Source: a bacterium (GTDB lineage Bacteria > Verrucomicrobiota > Verrucomicrobiia > Limisphaerales > J093). Taken from it: 64,000 bases of DNA. The notes below the pieces were generated by a model. That model made no database searches and was not told the origin of the DNA. It saw only the letters and a list, made by a program, of their open reading frames with translations. The position numbers were made by a program, and so were the translations under genes. This document shows positions 2,454-19,298 of the stretch, piece by piece (positions within the stretch are counted from its first letter, which is position 1; the number at the start of each line of letters is the position of its first letter). The stretch is from the NCBI GenBank assembly GCA_021780105.1, contig JAJXZJ010000029.1, forward strand, positions 1 to 64,000. Direction: 5' to 3'.

Positions 2454-2534
2454 CGGAACGAGAATGCGGAAAGCCGCCGCACGCGACAAGTGGAATTGCG
2501 CCTGGACGCCCACGCGCCAGCAACACCGCCGGCG

Positions 2535-3455
2535 CTAAATCTGGAAGTCGAGGATTGGGACATTGCGGTCGGTCTTGGGCATGACCTTGACCTTCGCGTC
2601 CTCGCTGATGACGAGCGAATTGGCTGGAACGCTGTGCGTGAGGAACACGTTGGCGCCAACGGTGCTGCCGGCGCCGATCACTGTGTCGCCGCCCATGATG
2701 GTGGCGCCGGCGTAGATCGTCACACGATCTTCGAGCGTCGGGTGGCGCTTCTGTCCGCGCAGGGCCTGACCGCCTGCCAGGGATCGTGCCACGAGACCCA
2801 CGCCTTGATACAGTTTTACGTGGCTGCCGATGTCGGTTGTCTCGCCAACCACCGTGCCGGTGCAATGATCCACGAAGAAATGCGTGCCAATCCGGGCGCC
2901 GGGATGCAGGTCAAGCCCGCTGCGGCTGTGCGCCCACTCGGTCATGATCCGCGGCAGCAGTGCCACCTGCTTCCGGTGAAGTTCGTGCGCCAGCCGCTGC
3001 ACGGCGATCGCCTCCACAAACGGATACGCCAGGATGACCTCCTCCTTGCTCAGCGCGGCGGGGTCGCCGTTGTAGGCGGCCTCGACATCGGTGCATAACA
3101 AATCACGAACGTTGGGCAGGCTGGCGAGGAATTCCAGCGTCCACTGCCGGGCCAGCCCGGGCAAATCCTTCTTTTTGGCGCCGGGCGGCGGGACATATTC
3201 CAGGCTCCGCCGAATCTGGCCTTCCAGGCGCACCAGCACCGATTCGATGAGCGTGGCCGTTTCCGTCTTGACCTGGGAAAGGTGCATGACTTCCTCCGCG
3301 AAATAGCCTGGAAAAAGCAGTCGTAACAAATCCACCGTGATGACGGCGATTTCGCGTTTGGAAGGTAGATTCTTGCCATCCAGATGGTTGATCCCGCCCA
3401 CGCGGGCGTAGGAATCGAGAAACTCGTTGGTCAATTGCGTCACCGTGACGTTCAC
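2535..3455 (-). CDS. cysE: Serine O-acetyltransferase (EpsC/CysE type)
   Basis: This likely catalyses transfer of acetyl from acetyl-CoA to serine, the committing step of cysteine synthesis. The 306-residue protein has a helical N-terminal half and a left-handed beta-helix built of hexapeptide repeats in the C-terminal half. The diagnostic stretch GARIGTHFFVDHCTGTVVGETTDIG, followed by VKLYQGVGL and RHPTLEDRVTIYAGATI, is typical of serine acetyltransferases of the EpsC subgroup. The start is GTG at 3455; no better start is visible downstream before conserved sequence. It is the first gene of a possible minus-strand run with ruvB and carB and diverges from parE. Confidence 0.9.
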   Translation of the reverse strand: MNVTVTQLTNEFLDSYARVGGINHLDGKNLPSKREIAVITVDLLRLLFPGYFAEEVMHLSQVKTETATLIESVLVRLEGQIRRSLEYVPPPGAKKKDLPGLARQWTLEFLASLPNVRDLLCTDVEAAYNGDPAALSKEEVILAYPFVEAIAVQRLAHELHRKQVALLPRIMTEWAHSRSGLDLHPGARIGTHFFVDHCTGTVVGETTDIGSHVKLYQGVGLVARSLAGGQALRGQKRHPTLEDRVTIYAGATIMGGDTVIGAGSTVGANVFLTHSVPANSLVISEDAKVKVMPKTDRNVPILDFQI

Positions 3456-3769
3456 GCGCCGACTATCCGGCCGGGGAAACCGAAAGGCAAGACCACCCCA
3501 AGCTGGGGGCGCCCTGCCCTGCCCTGCCCGTAGATGCTCCGCTGCGTTGCAGTCACGGACCCGCTGACTTTGGGAGCAGCTCTGGTATCCGGCTGGTATT
3601 CGGACGCAACGGTTTCGTCGCCTGTTTCACCCAAACCAGTGCGTGCGCCTGCAACCGTTCGACGCCAACAAACCGCCGGCTGCGCGCAGACAAATTTGGA
3701 TTTAGCCGGCGAATTTGTTTTCCAGTTTGCAACGGGCCGCCATTTCCGCAAGCTCATCGCCGTTGGATT
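3456..3769. other. Divergent intergenic region, no gene seen
   Basis: About 314 bases separate the divergently oriented serine acetyltransferase and parE genes, so promoters for both should lie here. I see a short tandem run of CCCTG units near 3512-3530 but no convincing gene, RNA or terminator. Confidence 0.5.
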
Positions 3770-5599
3770 ATGGCCGAAACCGCGAAACACAATTACGACG
3801 AGAGCAAGATCAAGACGCTGTCCTCGCTGGAGCACATCCGGCTGCGGACCGGCATGTATATCGGCCGCGTCGGCAACGGCTCGCATCCCGACGACGGCTG
3901 CTACATCCTGCTCAAGGAGGTCGTGGACAACGCGATTGACGAATACATCATGGGCTTCGGCCGTGAGGTGCGGATCGAGATCGAGGGCCGTTGCGTGCGC
4001 GTGCGCGATTTCGGCCGCGGCATTCCGCTGGGCAAGGTGGTGGACTGCGTGTCGAAGATCAACACGGGCGCGAAATACAGCGACGACGTGTTCCAGTTCA
4101 GCGTGGGTCTCAACGGCGTGGGCACCAAGGCCGTCAACGCGCTGTCGAAAAGCTTCGTCGTGCGCAGCCACCGCGACGGCGAGTTTGTCGAAGCGGCGTT
4201 CAAGCAGGGAAAACTCAAAGGTGAAAAAAACGGCCGCACGGACGATCCCAACGGCACGTTCATCGAGTTCGAGCCGGACCCGGAGATTTTCAAGGACAGC
4301 CAGTTCCTGCCGGAGCACGTCGAACACCGGCTGCGACACTACAGCTACCTGAACACCGGGCTGAAGTTGATTTACAACGGCAAGACGTTCCAGTCGCGCC
4401 TCGGCCTGCTGGACCTGGTGATGGAGGATTTGCACGGCGACGGGAGTGAACCGATTTACGCGCCGCTGCATTACACCGCGAAGACGCTGGAGTTTTGTTT
4501 CACCCACAGCAACTCGCGCTACGGCGAGACGTTTTATTCGTTCGTCAACGGCCAATACACGAGCGACGGCGGCACGCACTTGAGCGCCTTTCGCGAAGGC
4601 CTGCTCAAGGCCGTCAACGAATACGCCAGCGGCAAATTCGACGGGGACGACGTGCGCGAGGCAATGGTCGGCGCCGTGGCCATCCGGTTGAAGGACCCGG
4701 TATTCGAGTCGCAGACCAAGAACAAGCTCGGCAACACGGAAATCCGCACCGAACTGGTCAACCGCGTCCGCGAGGAATTGCTGCACTTCTTCAACCGCAA
4801 CCGGGAAATCGCCGACCAGATCGTTGCCAAGGCCGAGGACACCAAACAACTGCGCAAGGAGCTGCAGGAGGTCAAAAAACTTGCCCGCGAGCGCGCCAAG
4901 GCGATTTCACTCCGCATTCCGCAGCTCAAGGACTGCAAGCATCATCTCGACAAGAAGCGCGGCAAGGGCGGCGACACGATGATCTTCATCTGCGAAGGCC
5001 AGTCCGCGGCCGGCTCGATCACGAGCTGCCGCGACGTCAACCGCCAGGCGGTGTTCGTGCTCAAAGGCAAGCCGCTGAACGTCTGGGATCTCAAGCGCGA
5101 CGTGGTTTATCGGAACGACGAGATGTTCAATCTCATGCAGGCGCTGAACATCGAGGACAACCTCGACGGTCTGCGCTACGGCAAAGTGATTTTAGCCACC
5201 GACGCGGACGTGGACGGCCTGCACATTCGCAACCTCCTGATCACTTATTTTTTCAAGTTCTTCGAGCAGCTCGTCCACGACGGCCACCTGCACGTGCTGG
5301 AGACGCCGCTGTTCCGCGTCCGGAACAAGGAGCGGACGATTTACTGCTATTCCGAAGCGGAACGCGATGCCGCGGCGAAGTCACTTGGCGGCAAACCAGA
5401 GATCACGCGGTTCAAGGGGCTGGGCGAAATCAGTCCGGCGGAGTTCAAGCAATTCATCGGCGGCGCCATGCGCCTCAGCCAGGTGGAATACGCGCCCAAG
5501 CCTGAAGCGGCGCCGATCCTGACGTTCTACATGGGCAAGAACACGCCGGAGCGGAAGGACTACATCATGGAACACCTGGTCGTGCCGGTGGAGGAATAA
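3770..5599 (+). CDS. parE: Type IIA topoisomerase ATPase subunit (topoisomerase IV subunit B-like)
   Basis: This is the ATP-binding subunit of a GyrB/ParE-type topoisomerase, which powers DNA strand passage for relaxation and decatenation. The 609-residue length and lack of the GyrB insert fit ParE. Visible are the GHKL ATPase motifs (EVVDNAIDEY, RDFGRGIP, GLNGVGTKAVNALS), the transducer region, and the TOPRIM domain (ICEGQSAAGSI, KGKPLNVWD, ATDADVDGLHIRNLL, RFKGLGEI). The usual EGDSA is EGQSA here, but the metal-binding Glu and the DADVDG acidic residues remain. Its likely partner subunit lies 3.2 kb downstream on the same strand, with two antiparallel genes between. Assignment to topo IV rather than gyrase is from length and partner type only. 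Confidence 0.85.
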   Translation: MAETAKHNYDESKIKTLSSLEHIRLRTGMYIGRVGNGSHPDDGCYILLKEVVDNAIDEYIMGFGREVRIEIEGRCVRVRDFGRGIPLGKVVDCVSKINTGAKYSDDVFQFSVGLNGVGTKAVNALSKSFVVRSHRDGEFVEAAFKQGKLKGEKNGRTDDPNGTFIEFEPDPEIFKDSQFLPEHVEHRLRHYSYLNTGLKLIYNGKTFQSRLGLLDLVMEDLHGDGSEPIYAPLHYTAKTLEFCFTHSNSRYGETFYSFVNGQYTSDGGTHLSAFREGLLKAVNEYASGKFDGDDVREAMVGAVAIRLKDPVFESQTKNKLGNTEIRTELVNRVREELLHFFNRNREIADQIVAKAEDTKQLRKELQEVKKLARERAKAISLRIPQLKDCKHHLDKKRGKGGDTMIFICEGQSAAGSITSCRDVNRQAVFVLKGKPLNVWDLKRDVVYRNDEMFNLMQALNIEDNLDGLRYGKVILATDADVDGLHIRNLLITYFFKFFEQLVHDGHLHVLETPLFRVRNKERTIYCYSEAERDAAAKSLGGKPEITRFKGLGEISPAEFKQFIGGAMRLSQVEYAPKPEAAPILTFYMGKNTPERKDYIMEHLVVPVEE

Positions 5600-7429: not shown

Positions 7430-8647
7430 TCAAAACGCTTGGAAGAGGCGCTGGAGGATGTTCGGGTGGCGGAACAAATGATCCAGTTCGGGCGCGCCGG
7501 GGTGGGTTTTTTCCAGGTCAAATTGCACCAGCAACGTCACGGTTTGGCCGCCGCGTCCGTTGCCGCGGATGGCGTCGAAGCCGTAGCCGTAAGCAAGAAT
7601 GTATTTCGACGCATTGTGGGGCGACCGATAGCCGATCGCCGCGCCGACGCCGGAGTTCCACCCGTTGTCCTGCTGCATTCCCGGCGTGTAGGCCATGACG
7701 CCGGTGAACGCGCCGGGCGTGATCGTCCAGCACTTCTTCGCATCGAACGGAATGGCATACGTGGCGCCCGCGAGCATGAAATTCCGCGCGCTGAGTTCGT
7801 TGTAATAGTAACCCGGCAGCGAAAAGGGAAACTCCGCCGCCAGTGCCAGTTCGCCGCCGAGCCGGTAGGCGCTGAAGCGATCCGGATGAATGCTCGTGCC
7901 GCCGTTGATGCTGAACGTGAGCGTGTGCTGCAATTCCGGCAACGTGTAGGCCAGCGCGGCGCGGCCCCAAAAAAGGTGGACCATGGATTCCACGCGCCGG
8001 TCGCCGGCATAGCCGTAGGCGCCGGAATTCAGCCGGAACTGGCCCTCATACCAAGCCGAAATTTCCAGCGCCAGGTCCGGCGCCAGCAAGGGTTCGATGC
8101 CGCCGTAGCGCAAACCCGCGCGAATCGTGGCCACCGGCTGGTCGCCCGGCAGGACGAAATTGGGCGCCGTCGTGTCATCGCGGTCGTAGAAGGTGTAATG
8201 AAAGCCGCCGCGCAGAAGTCCGTTCAGCGGAATCAACGCCCCGGGGTTGAACAGATGATAAAGCCGCAGCGACGGCCCGGCACCGCTGCCGGTGAAGGAT
8301 TCCTCGTGATACCACTTGCCGCGCCTGACCTCCTCGTAGCTGTCCGCGAAACCGCCGCCAGTGACGCCGATGCCAAGGTCGGTGTTCGGTCCGAGCACGC
8401 CGCGGATGCCCAGTTCGCCGTCCAGATATACCGGCGCGACGGCGAGCCGCAGCGTGAGGTTGGTTTGCACGAAGCCGGGCCGGTTGAGATAATAGAAGCC
8501 ATAGGCCGCGAGCGGCGCGTGGCCGTTGACCGGCTGGCTGTAGCCCAGTTCCAGCAAATCCCGCCGGACCGGGTCAATCTGCGCGCGGGCGGTAAAGACC
8601 GTCACGACAAGGACGACGGCCAGGGCGAGGGTGTGAAATCCCTTCAC
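7430..8647 (-). CDS. Putative exported outer-membrane beta-barrel-like protein of unknown function
   Basis: The predicted 405-residue product begins VKGFHTLALAVVLVVTVFTARAQ, a good signal peptide, if translation starts at the GTG at 8647; the longer track ORF would overlap parC on the other strand. The mature part alternates aromatic and glycine-rich stretches (FYYLNRPGFVQTNLTLRLAVAPVYLDGELGIRG, LFWGRAALAYTLPELQHTLTFSING, LALAAEFPFSLPGYYYNEL), a pattern expected of transmembrane beta strands. I do not recognise a named family. It diverges from parC and has an 11-bp stem hairpin just upstream. Function is not inferred. Confidence 0.6.
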   Translation of the reverse strand: MKGFHTLALAVVLVVTVFTARAQIDPVRRDLLELGYSQPVNGHAPLAAYGFYYLNRPGFVQTNLTLRLAVAPVYLDGELGIRGVLGPNTDLGIGVTGGGFADSYEEVRRGKWYHEESFTGSGAGPSLRLYHLFNPGALIPLNGLLRGGFHYTFYDRDDTTAPNFVLPGDQPVATIRAGLRYGGIEPLLAPDLALEISAWYEGQFRLNSGAYGYAGDRRVESMVHLFWGRAALAYTLPELQHTLTFSINGGTSIHPDRFSAYRLGGELALAAEFPFSLPGYYYNELSARNFMLAGATYAIPFDAKKCWTITPGAFTGVMAYTPGMQQDNGWNSGVGAAIGYRSPHNASKYILAYGYGFDAIRGNGRGGQTVTLLVQFDLEKTHPGAPELDHLFRHPNILQRLFQAF

Positions 8648-14962: not shown

Positions 14963-14974
14963 CCGTCGCTGGCC

Positions 14975-15385
14975 GTCTGCGCGATCTCGTCGGCGGTCAG
15001 CGCGCGCGCGGGATTTCGATCATCGTGCCGACGCTGTAGGTGAGTTTCACCTTCTGCGCGGCCATGACTTCCTTGGCCACGCGGTGGACGACTTCGGCCT
15101 GGAGGTCGAGTTCCTTCTTGAACCCGACCAGCGGGATCATAATTTCCGGATACACCAGGCCCAGGCGGCAGCCGCGGAAGCCGAGCATCGGGTTGAACTC
15201 GTGGAGTTCCTTGACGCGCTGCTGAATCTTTCCGACCGGCACGCCCATTTTCGCGGCGAGGTCCTTCTGCGCGGCTTCCTCGTGCGGGAGAAACTCGTGC
15301 AGCGGCGGGTCGAGGAAGCGGATGGCGGCCGGGAAACCTTTCAGGGCCTTGAAGATGCCGACGAAGGCGAACGCCGCTTCTGCTT
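14975..15385 (-). pseudogene. ppdK fragment A (internal segment of pyruvate phosphate dikinase)
   Basis: Reading from about 15385 downward, the translation is [28 protein letters not shown], then [22 protein letters not shown] and [10 protein letters not shown], which is the phosphoenolpyruvate-binding part of pyruvate phosphate dikinase. The piece has no start, and its last codons run through a (CG)n stretch where two extra bases shift the frame before [10 protein letters not shown]. Homology then stops at the S53 gene end. Its upstream edge overlaps the last codons of the DNA methyltransferase, which borrows its stop codon from this remnant. It is a broken piece; an intact ppdK should exist elsewhere. 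Confidence 0.85.
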
Positions 15386-16375
15386 ACTGGAAACCTGGCT
15401 TGCCTTCGGCTTGATCCTATGTTCGACCTGGCTTTCCGCTAATGCAAAATCCAGTTGGCCAACACTCATCGTGGGAACGGCATAGTCCAATTCAACTTCG
15501 GTTTCTTCCCCTCGAAAACGTGGGTAAAGCGCCGCCAAGTGAGGGATCGCCTGCTTGGCCAACGCAAAGTAGTGTTCGTCAATCTCAATGCCTATGGATT
15601 CGTAGCCCAATGCCTCGGTAGCTGCGATTGTCGAGCCTGACCCCATAAACGGGTCGCAAATCACACCTTCGCCCAGCGGCAGCAGGGCGCGGGCAAGAAT
15701 GCGCATGAAGTGTTGGGGCTTTAGACACGGGTGATCCGAGATCGCGGCCTCTCGATCTGGTGTCCGCCCGCTGGGTATGGCGTCAGGCAGAGGACGTTCA
15801 GTCGCCAATCGCCGCAAACCGCCGGTTTTCCAGCGGCGCAGGTTTTCAGCCACCGTCCGTTCAGAGATCGGCTTTCGGAAGAGCATCCACGGTTCGTAGG
15901 CTCCTTTGGGCGTCACGCAGACTTCCGGGAACTCGCGCTCGGCGTTCTTGGGCCGGTCTCCGCCGCGAAAGCTAAAGTAGAGCCGCATTAAGGCGGGCCG
16001 AATCTCAAAACCAGCCTCAGCCATTGCGACTTGGACGAGAGGCTGTAGCACCGGGTGACCAGCCACACACACATGCGAACCGGGAACCAAAGCTGGCATC
16101 AACAAGCTTCCCCAGTCGCGGAAATAGACGCGCAGTTGGTCTTTTTGAGCGCCGTTCAACACCGTGAAGCGTGGAAGCGGATCACGTTTGCTGCCGCCTA
16201 TCGTGGGCGGCAACCGCCACACACCGCCGCGCCCCGCGCGAAGTTTGGCAACCTCTTTCTCGGTAAATTCCAGCAAACCGTAGGGCGGATCGGTACACAC
16301 GGCGTGCAGCGAGTTCGGCGGACACTCACGCAACCAGTCAAAGCAGTCGGCATGAAACAACTGATATCTACTCAC
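15341..16375 (-). CDS. Type II DNA methyltransferase, beta-class (N4-cytosine or N6-adenine)
   Basis: This modification enzyme methylates an exocyclic amino group in the recognition site. Motif [12 protein letters not shown], lies near residue 30 and the SAM-binding motif [19 protein letters not shown], lies near residue 250, with a variable target-recognition stretch between; this order defines the beta class. The N-terminus [12 protein letters not shown] is typical for such enzymes. The start is GTG at 16375 inside a TCACCGGCGGTGA palindrome. Divergent from the restriction gene with 66 bases between them. The last about 14 residues ([12 protein letters not shown]) are frame-shifted ppdK sequence, so the native C-terminus may have been replaced or extended on insertion. 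Sequence specificity cannot be read. Confidence 0.92.
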
Positions 16376-16442
16376 CGGCGGTGAATTTCAAGTATAGGCG
16401 AAAGACAAGCAAGTCCAAACCGAGTATCAACCATAGGTGAAA
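16372..16442. promoter_or_regulatory. Divergent promoter/operator of the restriction-modification pair
   Basis: The 66-bp gap and its edges hold a perfect palindrome TCACCGGCGGTGA over the methyltransferase start, and repeated GGTGAA-type words (GGTGAAT at 16380, GGCGAAA at 16397, GGTGAAA at 16436), plus AGTAT at 16391 and 16423. Controller (C) proteins of restriction-modification systems bind such repeats between divergent genes. The HTH domain fused to the nuclease is the natural candidate ligand. Operator function is inferred. Confidence 0.45.
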
Positions 16443-17338
16443 TGGATGCGCGAACGACGATTGGGCGATTTGTCCGCCAACTCAGGGAAGGCAAAGGCCT
16501 GACGCAGGACCAAGTCGCCACCAGAACCGGCATCTCCTACCAGTTCTTGTCTGGCTTGGAGAACGGTCGCGAAAATTTCTCCATTGATGTATTGGAGTCC
16601 TTGGCGAAGGCGCTCGGAGCTTCACTCCCTCGGTTGGTTGGTGGAGCCTACGGAACCCAAGGCGACCTCTCGTCGTCCAAATCCAATCCGAATTTCTTTC
16701 GTCCACAGGTTCCGCTTCCGCCAGGAATGAAAGTCCGCCATTTGGAAGCTGCGATCAACGCGACGCAGGAGCTGGTTGGTCAGATCAATGCAGGTCTGGT
16801 CGCGAGCGGAGCGAAACCGCTGCCGCAATACATCCAAGGTAACAACTTTAGCGGTCTTGTGTCGAACGTGCTTTGCGATGCCTTGGATGAACACTCGCCG
16901 TTCAAACACAATTCCGATCAAGCCTACCCTGACCTCATCAATCCGAACGCACACGAAAACGGCAAACCGGCGGGTTTGGAGGTCAAATCCACAGTCCAGA
17001 TCGGCAAAGGCGGGGAGAGCCACAACGGCCACTCAGGGTGGCACTTGGTAACCTGCTTTCAAGTTGAGCCTGCCAGCGGAGTTGTTCGGTTTGTGCATAT
17101 CATGGTGGCGGTACTCAACGGCCACGCTCATCCGCAATCCGATTGGGTTTACGTGGGCAGCAAAGTGAACGCCACCACTGGGAGCCGTCGTACGGAGACA
17201 TACAACACAACGCTCACTGGGACGACCAAGTTGCGGGATGGCACCGTCTATTTGGACCCGGGCGTCGTGGACTTCAAGCGGTGGCGGCAGGCTCGTTCAG
17301 GCCCGATCCCGCCCTACTCGATTTTCAGCAAGGTTTGA
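16442..17338 (+). CDS. Fused HTH (controller-like) - type II restriction endonuclease
   Basis: The 298-residue protein joins two modules. Residues about 5-70 (RQLREGKGLTQDQVATRTGISYQFLSGLENGRENFSIDVLESLAKALG) form an XRE/Cro helix-turn-helix very like restriction-modification controller proteins. Residues about 100-298 carry a PD-(D/E)XK nuclease signature, YPDLIN followed by GLEVKST, and a conserved-looking IGKGGESHNGHSGWHL segment. I think the nuclease part resembles the ScaI-like family, but this is from memory and unverified. The partner methyltransferase diverges from it. Controllers are usually separate genes overlapping the nuclease gene, so the fusion is notable. Base composition appears lower in G+C than the surroundings. 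The stop lies five bases from the ppdK terminator. Confidence 0.85.
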   Translation: MDARTTIGRFVRQLREGKGLTQDQVATRTGISYQFLSGLENGRENFSIDVLESLAKALGASLPRLVGGAYGTQGDLSSSKSNPNFFRPQVPLPPGMKVRHLEAAINATQELVGQINAGLVASGAKPLPQYIQGNNFSGLVSNVLCDALDEHSPFKHNSDQAYPDLINPNAHENGKPAGLEVKSTVQIGKGGESHNGHSGWHLVTCFQVEPASGVVRFVHIMVAVLNGHAHPQSDWVYVGSKVNATTGSRRTETYNTTLTGTTKLRDGTVYLDPGVVDFKRWRQARSGPIPPYSIFSKV

Positions 17339-17343
17339 TGATC

Positions 17344-17372
17344 AAAAAGCCGCCCCGGTTGTCCGGGGCGGC
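17344..17372 (-). terminator. Rho-independent terminator (ppdK 3' end)
   Basis: A perfect 10-bp stem GCCGCCCCGG/CCGGGGCGGC with a 4-base loop is followed on the minus strand by TTTTT. It sits 60 bases past the stop of the ppdK C-terminal fragment and reads in that direction, so it is most likely the original ppdK terminator. It also lies right after the restriction gene's stop, though that side lacks a T-run. Confidence 0.85.
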
Positions 17373-17430
17373 GCTTGTGAATTTAAGCCTGAGCAGCGGA
17401 GCTTTGCCGAGCCGCCACTACATGCAGGGG

Positions 17431-17670
17431 CTACTTCTTCTTCGCCGGTTTGGCCGCCTTGGCGGCTTCCTCTTCCAGCGCGGCCTGCGCGGCGGCCAGG
17501 CGGGCCACCGGCACATGGAACGGCGAGCAGCTCACGCAGGTTAGGCCGATGCGGTGACAGAACTTCACCGAGTCGGGGTCGCCGCCGTGTTCGGCGCAGA
17601 TGCCCAGCTTGATGCCCGGCCGGGTCGCACTGCCTTTCTCCACGGCAATTTGCAGCAGCGGCTCATCGTC
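17431..17670 (-). pseudogene. ppdK fragment B (C-terminal end of pyruvate phosphate dikinase)
   Basis: The translation [34 protein letters not shown]...[20 protein letters not shown] is the C-terminal end of pyruvate phosphate dikinase, followed by an Ala/Lys-rich tail and a TAG stop. Canonical GICGEHGGDP is [10 protein letters not shown] and the usual GLDYVSCSPFRVP is [13 protein letters not shown], so catalytic residues are drifting. The fragment has no start of its own: upstream it joins in frame to a PIN-domain remnant at LLQIAVE. The gene order of fragments on the minus strand is C-terminal piece first, internal piece second, with the restriction-modification pair between. Confidence 0.85.
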
Positions 17671-17950
17671 CGGATCGCTGAGGCGAGGAATCCAAGCGGG
17701 CTGAAGTTGACACTGTCCCCAGCGGCAAAGAGGGCGTCCAGCACGTCGTCAATGTCCTCTGAGGTCAAGCCCATTTCCGCGGCGTAACGCTGGCCAACCT
17801 CCTCATATTCGAACAGGAGATGGTTGCTCAACACCATTTGCCAGCGGCCTCGATGGAGATCAGCGATAATCGCGAAGGCAGCACCGCTGCGTGGACCAGA
17901 GCAGCACTCAAAAAGACGTTCGTGTCAAGGATGGCCCGGGCATGGCCGGC
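17660..17950 (-). pseudogene. Frameshifted PIN-domain (VapC-like) gene remnant
   Basis: Three frames together give ARAILDTNVFLSAALV, then [63 protein letters not shown], then [19 protein letters not shown]. This is a PIN-domain ribonuclease of the type found in toxin-antitoxin pairs, with the LDTNV and DPDDE acidic motifs. At least two frameshifts (near 17885 and 17693) interrupt it, the start codon is missing, and its C-terminus (the usual D..VTHN part) is replaced by the ppdK end. It begins directly at the fucosidase stop codon, and no antitoxin gene is visible. Confidence 0.75.
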
Positions 17951-17951
17951 A

Positions 17952-19298
17952 TCAAAGCGCCTGCGGCTTGCCGTTGATTTCCAACACCACCACACCGGCG
18001 GCCGACGTTGGTGAGGCTGCGGGGACGTGAACGATTTTGCCTTCGGCGGTGGTTTCGACCGTCAGCGGCGTTTTGCCGTCGAGCAGATACGCCTTCTCAA
18101 CGGGGCTGGCCAGCGGGACCACCAGCCGGCCGTCGGCGGGCCAGTCAAAGACTTCGAGATAAATCCTGCCCGGCTTCTGCGTGGCGCGGCCCCAGGCGAG
18201 TTTCGGGAACGGGCTGGCGGTGGTGTCGTAGATCGCCTCGTGGTTGACCTTCATCCACGCCCCGATCTCGGCCAGGCGCTCGACGCTCGGCGCGGGGAAA
18301 AGCCCCTCGCTCGTCGGCCCGATGTTGAGCAGGTAATTGCCGCCCTTGCTGGCGCAGTCAATCAGGTTGCGGATGAGTGTCGTCGAGGATTTCCAATGCT
18401 GGTCGTTTTTGTTGTAGCCCCAGTGGTTGTTCATCGTCATGCAGGACTCCCAATCCACGCCCGGTCCGAAACCGGTCGGCGGGATTTCCTGCTCCGGCGT
18501 GCCGTAGTCGCCGATGCGTTCGTTGCCTTTGTCCATGCCGTTCATGCCGGCGCGGGCCTTGCCGACGCGGTTGTTGATGATGATCTGCGGCTGGAGACTG
18601 CGGACGTAGTTGTAAAGGTCCACGCCGCGGTCGTGCGTCCAGGGCGATTCCCATTCGCCGTCGAACCACAGAATGCCGATCGGCCCGTAGCGCGTGAGGA
18701 GCTCCTTGAGCTGGCCCTTCATGTAGGCGACGTAGCGGTCCATGTCCGGCGGCGTTTTGGGCGCCTTGTCATTCCAGGCGCGGCGCGTTCCCCAGTCCGG
18801 GTGATGCCAGTCCATGATCGAGTAATAAAAACAAAGCTTGATGCCGGCGTCGTGGCAGGCGGCGGCGAGTTCTTTCAGCGGGTCGCGCGGAAACGGCGTG
18901 GACTTGATGCACCAGTCGGTGAGGTCGCTGCGGAACATGCCGAAGCCGTCGTGGTGCTTGCTGGTGATGACGATGTATTTCATGCCGGCGTTCTTGGCCA
19001 TCGCCACCCACGCCTTGGCGTCGAACTTCACCGGATTGAACTGTTGCGCGAACTTCTCGTATTGCGACACCGGCATGTGTGTCTCTTCGAGGAACCACTC
19101 GGCGTAGTTGGTCTTGCCGTTCCACTCGCCGGCGGGCACGGAATAGACGCCCCAGTGGATGAACAGGCCGAAGCGGGCGTCGCGCCACCAGACCATGCGG
19201 GCGTCGTGTTCGGCGGGCGTTTCGGCAAGTGCGGGTGCCACGGTCAGGGCCAGCAGCGCGGCCAGCGCAAACCGGTGAAGGAATCGGGTGAGTTTCAT
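17952..19298 (-). CDS. Secreted alpha-L-fucosidase (GH29)
   Basis: GH29 retaining enzyme removing alpha-linked L-fucose from glycans. The 448-residue protein has a signal peptide (KLTRFLHRFALAALLALTVAPALAE), so it acts outside the cytoplasm. The catalytic TIM-barrel shows the family patterns WWRDARFGLFIHWGVYSVPAGEW, YIVITSKHHDGFGMF, DWHHPDW and the nucleophile Asp about 213 in GPIGILWFDGEWE; NNRVG and GGNYLLNIGPTSEGLFP follow. A small C-terminal beta-sandwich ends at VVVLEINGKPQAL. It heads toward the PIN remnant and restriction cassette; upstream are the SET gene and two further secreted hydrolases on the same strand, suggesting a glycan-use cluster. Confidence 0.94.
   Translation of the reverse strand: MKLTRFLHRFALAALLALTVAPALAETPAEHDARMVWWRDARFGLFIHWGVYSVPAGEWNGKTNYAEWFLEETHMPVSQYEKFAQQFNPVKFDAKAWVAMAKNAGMKYIVITSKHHDGFGMFRSDLTDWCIKSTPFPRDPLKELAAACHDAGIKLCFYYSIMDWHHPDWGTRRAWNDKAPKTPPDMDRYVAYMKGQLKELLTRYGPIGILWFDGEWESPWTHDRGVDLYNYVRSLQPQIIINNRVGKARAGMNGMDKGNERIGDYGTPEQEIPPTGFGPGVDWESCMTMNNHWGYNKNDQHWKSSTTLIRNLIDCASKGGNYLLNIGPTSEGLFPAPSVERLAEIGAWMKVNHEAIYDTTASPFPKLAWGRATQKPGRIYLEVFDWPADGRLVVPLASPVEKAYLLDGKTPLTVETTAEGKIVHVPAASPTSAAGVVVLEINGKPQAL

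Follow-up and report, generated by a model that had tools for sequence, protein, structure and literature searches.

The window (the whole stretch of 64,000 nucleotides analysed here) carries a restriction-modification (R-M) cassette of about 2 kb, at approximately positions 15367-17431, with two divergently transcribed genes. The forward-strand gene is an uninterrupted ORF that begins with ATG at position 16442 and whose stop codon ends at position 17338. It encodes a protein of 298 aa with an N-terminal controller-type helix-turn-helix (HTH) domain and a C-terminal PD-(D/E)XK nuclease domain, and its full length is conserved in Verrucomicrobiota relatives. On the reverse strand, positions 15341-16375 encode a beta-class N6/N4 DNA methyltransferase with a GTG start (Pfam N6_N4_Mtase, 2.6e-15; PADLOC MTase_II, 1.1e-87), which carries the motif DPPY near its N-terminus and FMGSGS near its C-terminus and is also the divergent neighbour in the relatives. 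The methyltransferase and nuclease genes are adjacent both in the window and in its relatives, as in type II R-M systems. The divergent intergenic region between the two starts (16376-16441) measures 66 bp, the value given in the first-pass annotation, provided that the methyltransferase starts at GTG 16375; the start in relatives lies two codons further in.

The cassette is flanked on both sides by pieces of a pyruvate phosphate dikinase gene (ppdK). One edge is formed by an internal ppdK fragment (14972-15366, reverse strand), 95-97% identical to the intact ppdK of the same genome, and the other edge by a 3' fragment (17432-17649, reverse strand), 95% identical to it. The intact gene is present on another contig (G000:C52:13018-15705), and the flanking pieces in the window are in scrambled order. 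Nobusato et al. in 2000 reportedly described R-M insertion with long target duplication. The ppdK pieces around the cassette are possibly the trace of such an insertion, which we offer only as a suggestion because the two pieces share no overlap with each other. Further to the right, small reverse-strand ORFs at 17565-17995 resemble, by eye, the remains of a disrupted PIN-domain toxin gene; Pfam was run on one of them (17565-17837) and gave no match. The flanks of most relatives are unrelated to those of the window. The right-hand neighbour gene of the window is also present in L001 (9723-10724), and part of the left-hand neighbour in L003 (164-1273), hinting at a location common to the window and some relatives. 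In another relative, L005, the R-M cassette is surrounded by a 117-bp direct repeat (2116-2232 and 4318-4434, 91% identical).

The HTH domain of the fusion protein (residues 1-69, positions 16442-16648) is recognized by Pfam, PADLOC, AF2 and Foldseek. Residues 7-62 match HTH_31 (1.4e-14) and HTH_3 (8.4e-14) over the curated Pfam cut-offs. The first ~70 residues had been described as C-protein-like, and this description holds. C.AhdI, C.Esp1396I and C.BclI are among the nearest solved relatives of the HTH in the PDB sequence search, and the same three were matched by Foldseek with the full model (1y7y, rmsd 0.7). However, other XRE regulators (ClgR, DdrO) score equal to or better than C proteins against the window HTH, and its match to the PADLOC Control_protein models (5e-10) is well below that of true separate C proteins (7e-20). 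By itself, the window HTH cannot be told from other XRE regulators, either by sequence or by fold.

The HTH is followed by a variable linker (residues 70-86, positions 16649-16699), in which the commonest residue per column has a mean share of 0.43, versus 0.77 in the HTH. The AlphaFold model of the full protein has the two-part organization that had been expected, with a confident HTH (residues 3-70; AF2 pLDDT 84-96 over the domain), a low-confidence stretch at residues ~71-80 and a mixed alpha/beta nuclease domain. In comparison with L001, the pN/pS values are 0.13/0.69 in the HTH, 0.11/0.77 in the nuclease and 0.52/0.49, that is, about 1, in the linker. This comparison indicates that the HTH and the nuclease are both under purifying selection, and that the linker is not.

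The nuclease domain (residues 87-298, positions 16700-17335) was identified from its motif, profile comparison and predicted fold. Its catalytic motif, P163-D164...E180-x-K182 (16928-16987), is invariant in an alignment of 15 diverse homologues with hosts in Verrucomicrobiota, Pseudomonadota and Actinomycetota, which bears out the earlier assignment to the PD-(D/E)XK nucleases. The suggested HMM search of the two halves identified the HTH half; the C-terminal half has neither a Pfam nor an NCBIfam match. Sequence searches of the PDB, with the single protein and with profiles, returned HTH matches and no credible nuclease match, and only HTH proteins were listed by Foldseek for the full model. 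For the nuclease domain alone, Foldseek placed EcoRV, SwaI and NaeI first, an assignment to the EcoRV-type fold that is only suggestive because E exceeds 0.01 and TM-scores are at most 0.43 throughout. The family profile was also aligned by hhalign with a phage-borne nuclease annotated as R.SnaBI, giving a probability of 95% and an E-value of 3e-8 over the S..PD..ExK region; this phage nuclease matches PADLOC REase_II PDLC03564 at 1.7e-96. The homology to SnaBI-like restriction endonucleases thus includes the catalytic residues, but it is remote (~20% identity), the SnaBI name comes from the record annotation, and the specificity need not be the TACGTA of SnaBI. Membership in the PvuII family was rejected: the hhalign probability was 0.8%, with a PvuII query verified against PDB chains, and the family profile had no match to PvuII chains at E up to 10. 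Because of these hhalign probabilities and the predicted-domain matches, the window nuclease falls in a SnaBI-like family, probably with an EcoRV fold, and is not a PvuII relative.

In a scan of genome contigs, 17 relatives were found at 52-77% identity, all of them reaching into or spanning both halves and all from Verrucomicrobiota wherever the group is named. When 388 sampled genomes of the phylum were included, four further fused systems (L020-L023) and two without a controller (L024 and L025) came to light. The HTH is present in all 21 close relatives, which are full or partial homologues keeping both halves, and at least part of the divergent methyltransferase gene lies beside the fusion in each of the 17 and the four added ones. 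One gene has an apparent frameshift near codon 50 (L014), and another ends at the end of its contig (L016). The joining of the two halves is therefore no chance event. With the window, the fused clade comprises 22 systems, from genomes that are metagenome assemblies. Fusion is the rule in this clade, which has so far been found in Verrucomicrobiota only; the phage records contained none of its members. Downstream of its intact fusion, L002 carries an incomplete extra copy of the nuclease domain (7727-8035), which covers residues 185-297 at 61% identity.

More distant homologues are organized differently. On the Acidiphilium multivorum plasmid pACMV5, the gene for a 73-aa HTH protein shares 4 bp with the nuclease gene, and a convergent methyltransferase gene follows. 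This separate HTH protein matches the PADLOC control protein at 7e-20, and the system has canonical tandem C boxes, ACTTATAGTC-gctg-GACTCATAGTC. Nucleases without the N-terminal HTH are present on Klebsiella, Gordonia, Rhizobium, Mycobacterium and Iamia plasmids. In these systems and in that of a Pseudomonas plasmid, nuclease and methyltransferase occur with no C gene annotated, and direct ORF searches upstream of the nuclease in several of them found none. The Acidiphilium, Klebsiella, Gordonia and Rhizobium systems resemble the window in having a homologous nuclease (20-27% identity) and an N6/N4 methyltransferase; unlike in the window, the controller is separate (Acidiphilium) or absent (the others), and the methyltransferase is mostly convergent. 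The methyltransferase is also longer at its N-terminus in the Klebsiella and two Verrucomicrobiota controller-less systems. By eye, this extra stretch is winged-helix-like in the controller-less L024, L025 and L026, and fused systems do not have it; it contains no Pfam domain. The survey of relatives that had been called for yields 21 fused homologues together with separate-controller and no-controller ones. The HTH is thus no fixed component of the nuclease family, which goes against the first of the two refutations named in the first-pass annotation.

The family profile also detected another homologue in the genome to which the window belongs (on contig C11); it is unfused and is accompanied by a separate 79-aa C protein, a 5-methylcytosine-type methyltransferase and a Vsr-like nuclease. 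Two other homologues are fused, one (L048) in another genome of the phylum and one (L049) on a Psychrobacter plasmid, where the C-box palindrome is GAGACTATAGTCTC. In the nuclease tree, which is unrooted and has long branches, the window clade is supported at 93/93, and the L048-L049 pair (98/85) lies beside the unfused enzyme on contig C11. Two independent fusions are the simplest reading of this tree, the second fused clade being probably separate in origin; a single ancestral fusion with later splits may be the alternative. No relatives of either fused clade were found in viral contigs. Around the second R-M system of the genome (L047, G000:C11:219500-227500) there is a 182-bp direct repeat (756-937 and 4684-4865, 92%), the first copy of which lies inside a clpB-like gene. 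In the Streptococcus phage phi-SsuHCJ31_comEC (L050), a broken clade-B nuclease homologue (2474-3823) directly precedes a nuclease annotated as R.SnaBI, which belongs to the same superfamily, and a methylase annotated as SinI-like is next to the pair.

The upstream regions of the fused genes have in common an 18-bp box, a near-perfect palindrome in the deep branches (TTTCAACTATAGTTGAAA). Two such boxes, both imperfect palindromes, are found in the window. The first, O1 (TTTCAAGTATAGGCGAAA, 16386-16403), is present in all 22 systems, with the core ACTATAGT or nearly so, at a near-fixed distance from the coding start (54-56 bp upstream in fused relatives with a clear start) and close to where the methyltransferase gene begins. 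In L020 and L021 the called ORF begins further upstream, and the register of O1 was set by homology. The second, O2 (TATCAACCATAGGTGAAA, 16425-16442), lies 39 bp from O1 and overlaps the fusion's ATG by its first base. At up to 4 mismatches, O2 is found in half of the systems (11 of 22, the window among them); some others have a more degenerate copy, and L012, L013, L015 and L020-L023 have none. Because O2 is absent from deeper branches, the two-site scheme is not general. In a search of the 4.55-Mb genome with a degenerate pattern at one mismatch, O1 and O2 were the only matches, and the reversed control pattern had zero matches. A scan for a sigma-70-like promoter found none. C boxes similar to this core occur in the unfused Acidiphilium system and in the second fused clade. 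Symmetric C boxes, imperfect in the window, thus lie upstream of the controller-bearing gene in 22 of 22 systems. As candidate binding sites, these conserved promoter boxes further support a controller role of the HTH half.

The above observations lead us to the reading, to which we assign a probability of roughly 80%, that this is a type II R-M cassette in which controller and nuclease form one polypeptide, and that the fused protein regulates its own expression by binding to its promoter. The divergently transcribed methyltransferase would protect the host DNA, and the nuclease half would cut unmodified DNA. By analogy with C-protein systems (PMC4321490, PMC6237814, PMC3850674), the HTH half may bind as a dimer to O1 and, where present, to O2. 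Judging from its position, occupied O1 would limit the methyltransferase promoter and tune the fusion's own promoter; in the deepest branches O1 directly adjoins the start of the methyltransferase gene, and therefore binding should limit methyltransferase expression. Occupied O2, also by its position, would shut off expression of the fusion when the protein is abundant, either by blocking initiation or by a roadblock of the type reported for Kpn2I. We propose that, with the HTH bound to its own operator sites, the level of nuclease would thus be set directly by operator occupancy. A more far-reaching version, which we consider rather doubtful, is that the fusion arose at least twice in the nuclease superfamily, apart from PvuII, and that the operator competes with cleavage for the same dimers, so that occupancy throttles activity as well as synthesis.

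Other roles of the HTH can be imagined. It could be an extra DNA-binding arm of the nuclease, for target recognition or for an effector site, and no transcription controller. Some restriction enzymes do carry extra DNA-binding domains, and an HTH that is generic XRE by sequence and fold would suit this role. However, homologous nucleases exist without the HTH or with the HTH as a separate gene, and the boxes beside the HTH-bearing genes are conserved and have no other match in the genome, as would suit a dedicated operator rather than a restriction target; such an arm is unlikely.

We give still less weight to the possibility that the fusion is nominal, with free controller and free nuclease both made by an internal start, a frameshift or proteolysis. 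The linker is variable and of low confidence, and in several fused members codon 96, near the N-terminal edge of the nuclease domain, is an in-frame ATG. But not every member has a start codon at this position, which lacks a ribosome-binding site and lies within a conserved R-x-VPLPPG block, and CR.NsoJS138I was seen as a full-length protein only (PMC3850674). Moreover, no in-frame start with a ribosome-binding site near the junction is conserved in the 17 fused genes, which removes the first-pass annotation's own concern that relatives might be split there. Its central claim, a C-like HTH and a nuclease in one polypeptide, agrees with the single 298-aa ORF and with the retention of both halves in 21 homologues; on this sequence evidence, we regard the ORF at 16442-17338 as a true controller-nuclease (C-REase) fusion. 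Least probable of all, and hardly credible, is that the boxes serve as binding sites of the methyltransferase or include the recognition site of the R-M system, with promoter methylation as the regulator and another job for the HTH: O1 does abut the methyltransferase start in deep branches, but close orthologues differ in the box core (CTATAG, GTATAG), which would not suit an R-M target, and the Pfam scan detected no additional DNA-binding domain in the methyltransferase.

The system shows controller-nuclease fusion to be a recurrent outcome rather than a quirk of the PvuII family, and one stable enough to persist in many Verrucomicrobiota. The superfamily also has separate-controller and no-controller members, and its fused and unfused lineages meet in the window's genome. 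Therefore, it offers a natural comparison set for the effect of fusion on the R-M timing switch. In addition, the candidate operator is precise and unique, making the regulatory half directly testable.

Among the known systems, the free controllers C.Csp231I and C.EcoO109I are similar to the window in having two palindromic sites set far apart (spacers of 18 and 25 bp, against 21 bp in the window), and differ from it in being free C proteins with the recognition sequence CTAAG-N5-CTTAG (PMC4321490). The idea that wide box spacing is peculiar to fusions was dropped, because these free proteins also have long spacers. This kind of fusion is not new, since C-REase fusions were found and tested in the PvuII family by Liang & Blumenthal in 2013 (PMC3850674). 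The fusions of that family are CR.NsoJS138I, Mru1279I, Asp90I, Gsp7428I and Oni7112I, and CR.NsoJS138I has both nuclease and controller activity (PMC3850674). As in CR.NsoJS138I, controller and nuclease lie in the window in one ORF with no conserved internal start. The PvuII-family fusions also share with the window an N-terminal controller joined to a type II nuclease, upstream boxes and, in several of them, a divergent methyltransferase; their nuclease is unrelated and their operator sequence is different. What appears to be new here is the fusion in an unrelated nuclease family, conserved across a phylum and with a well-defined candidate operator, and probably also its repeated origin. Finally, the PvuII family is divided into three classes, with fused, separate or no C protein (PMC3850674), and the superfamily of the window nuclease contains the same three.
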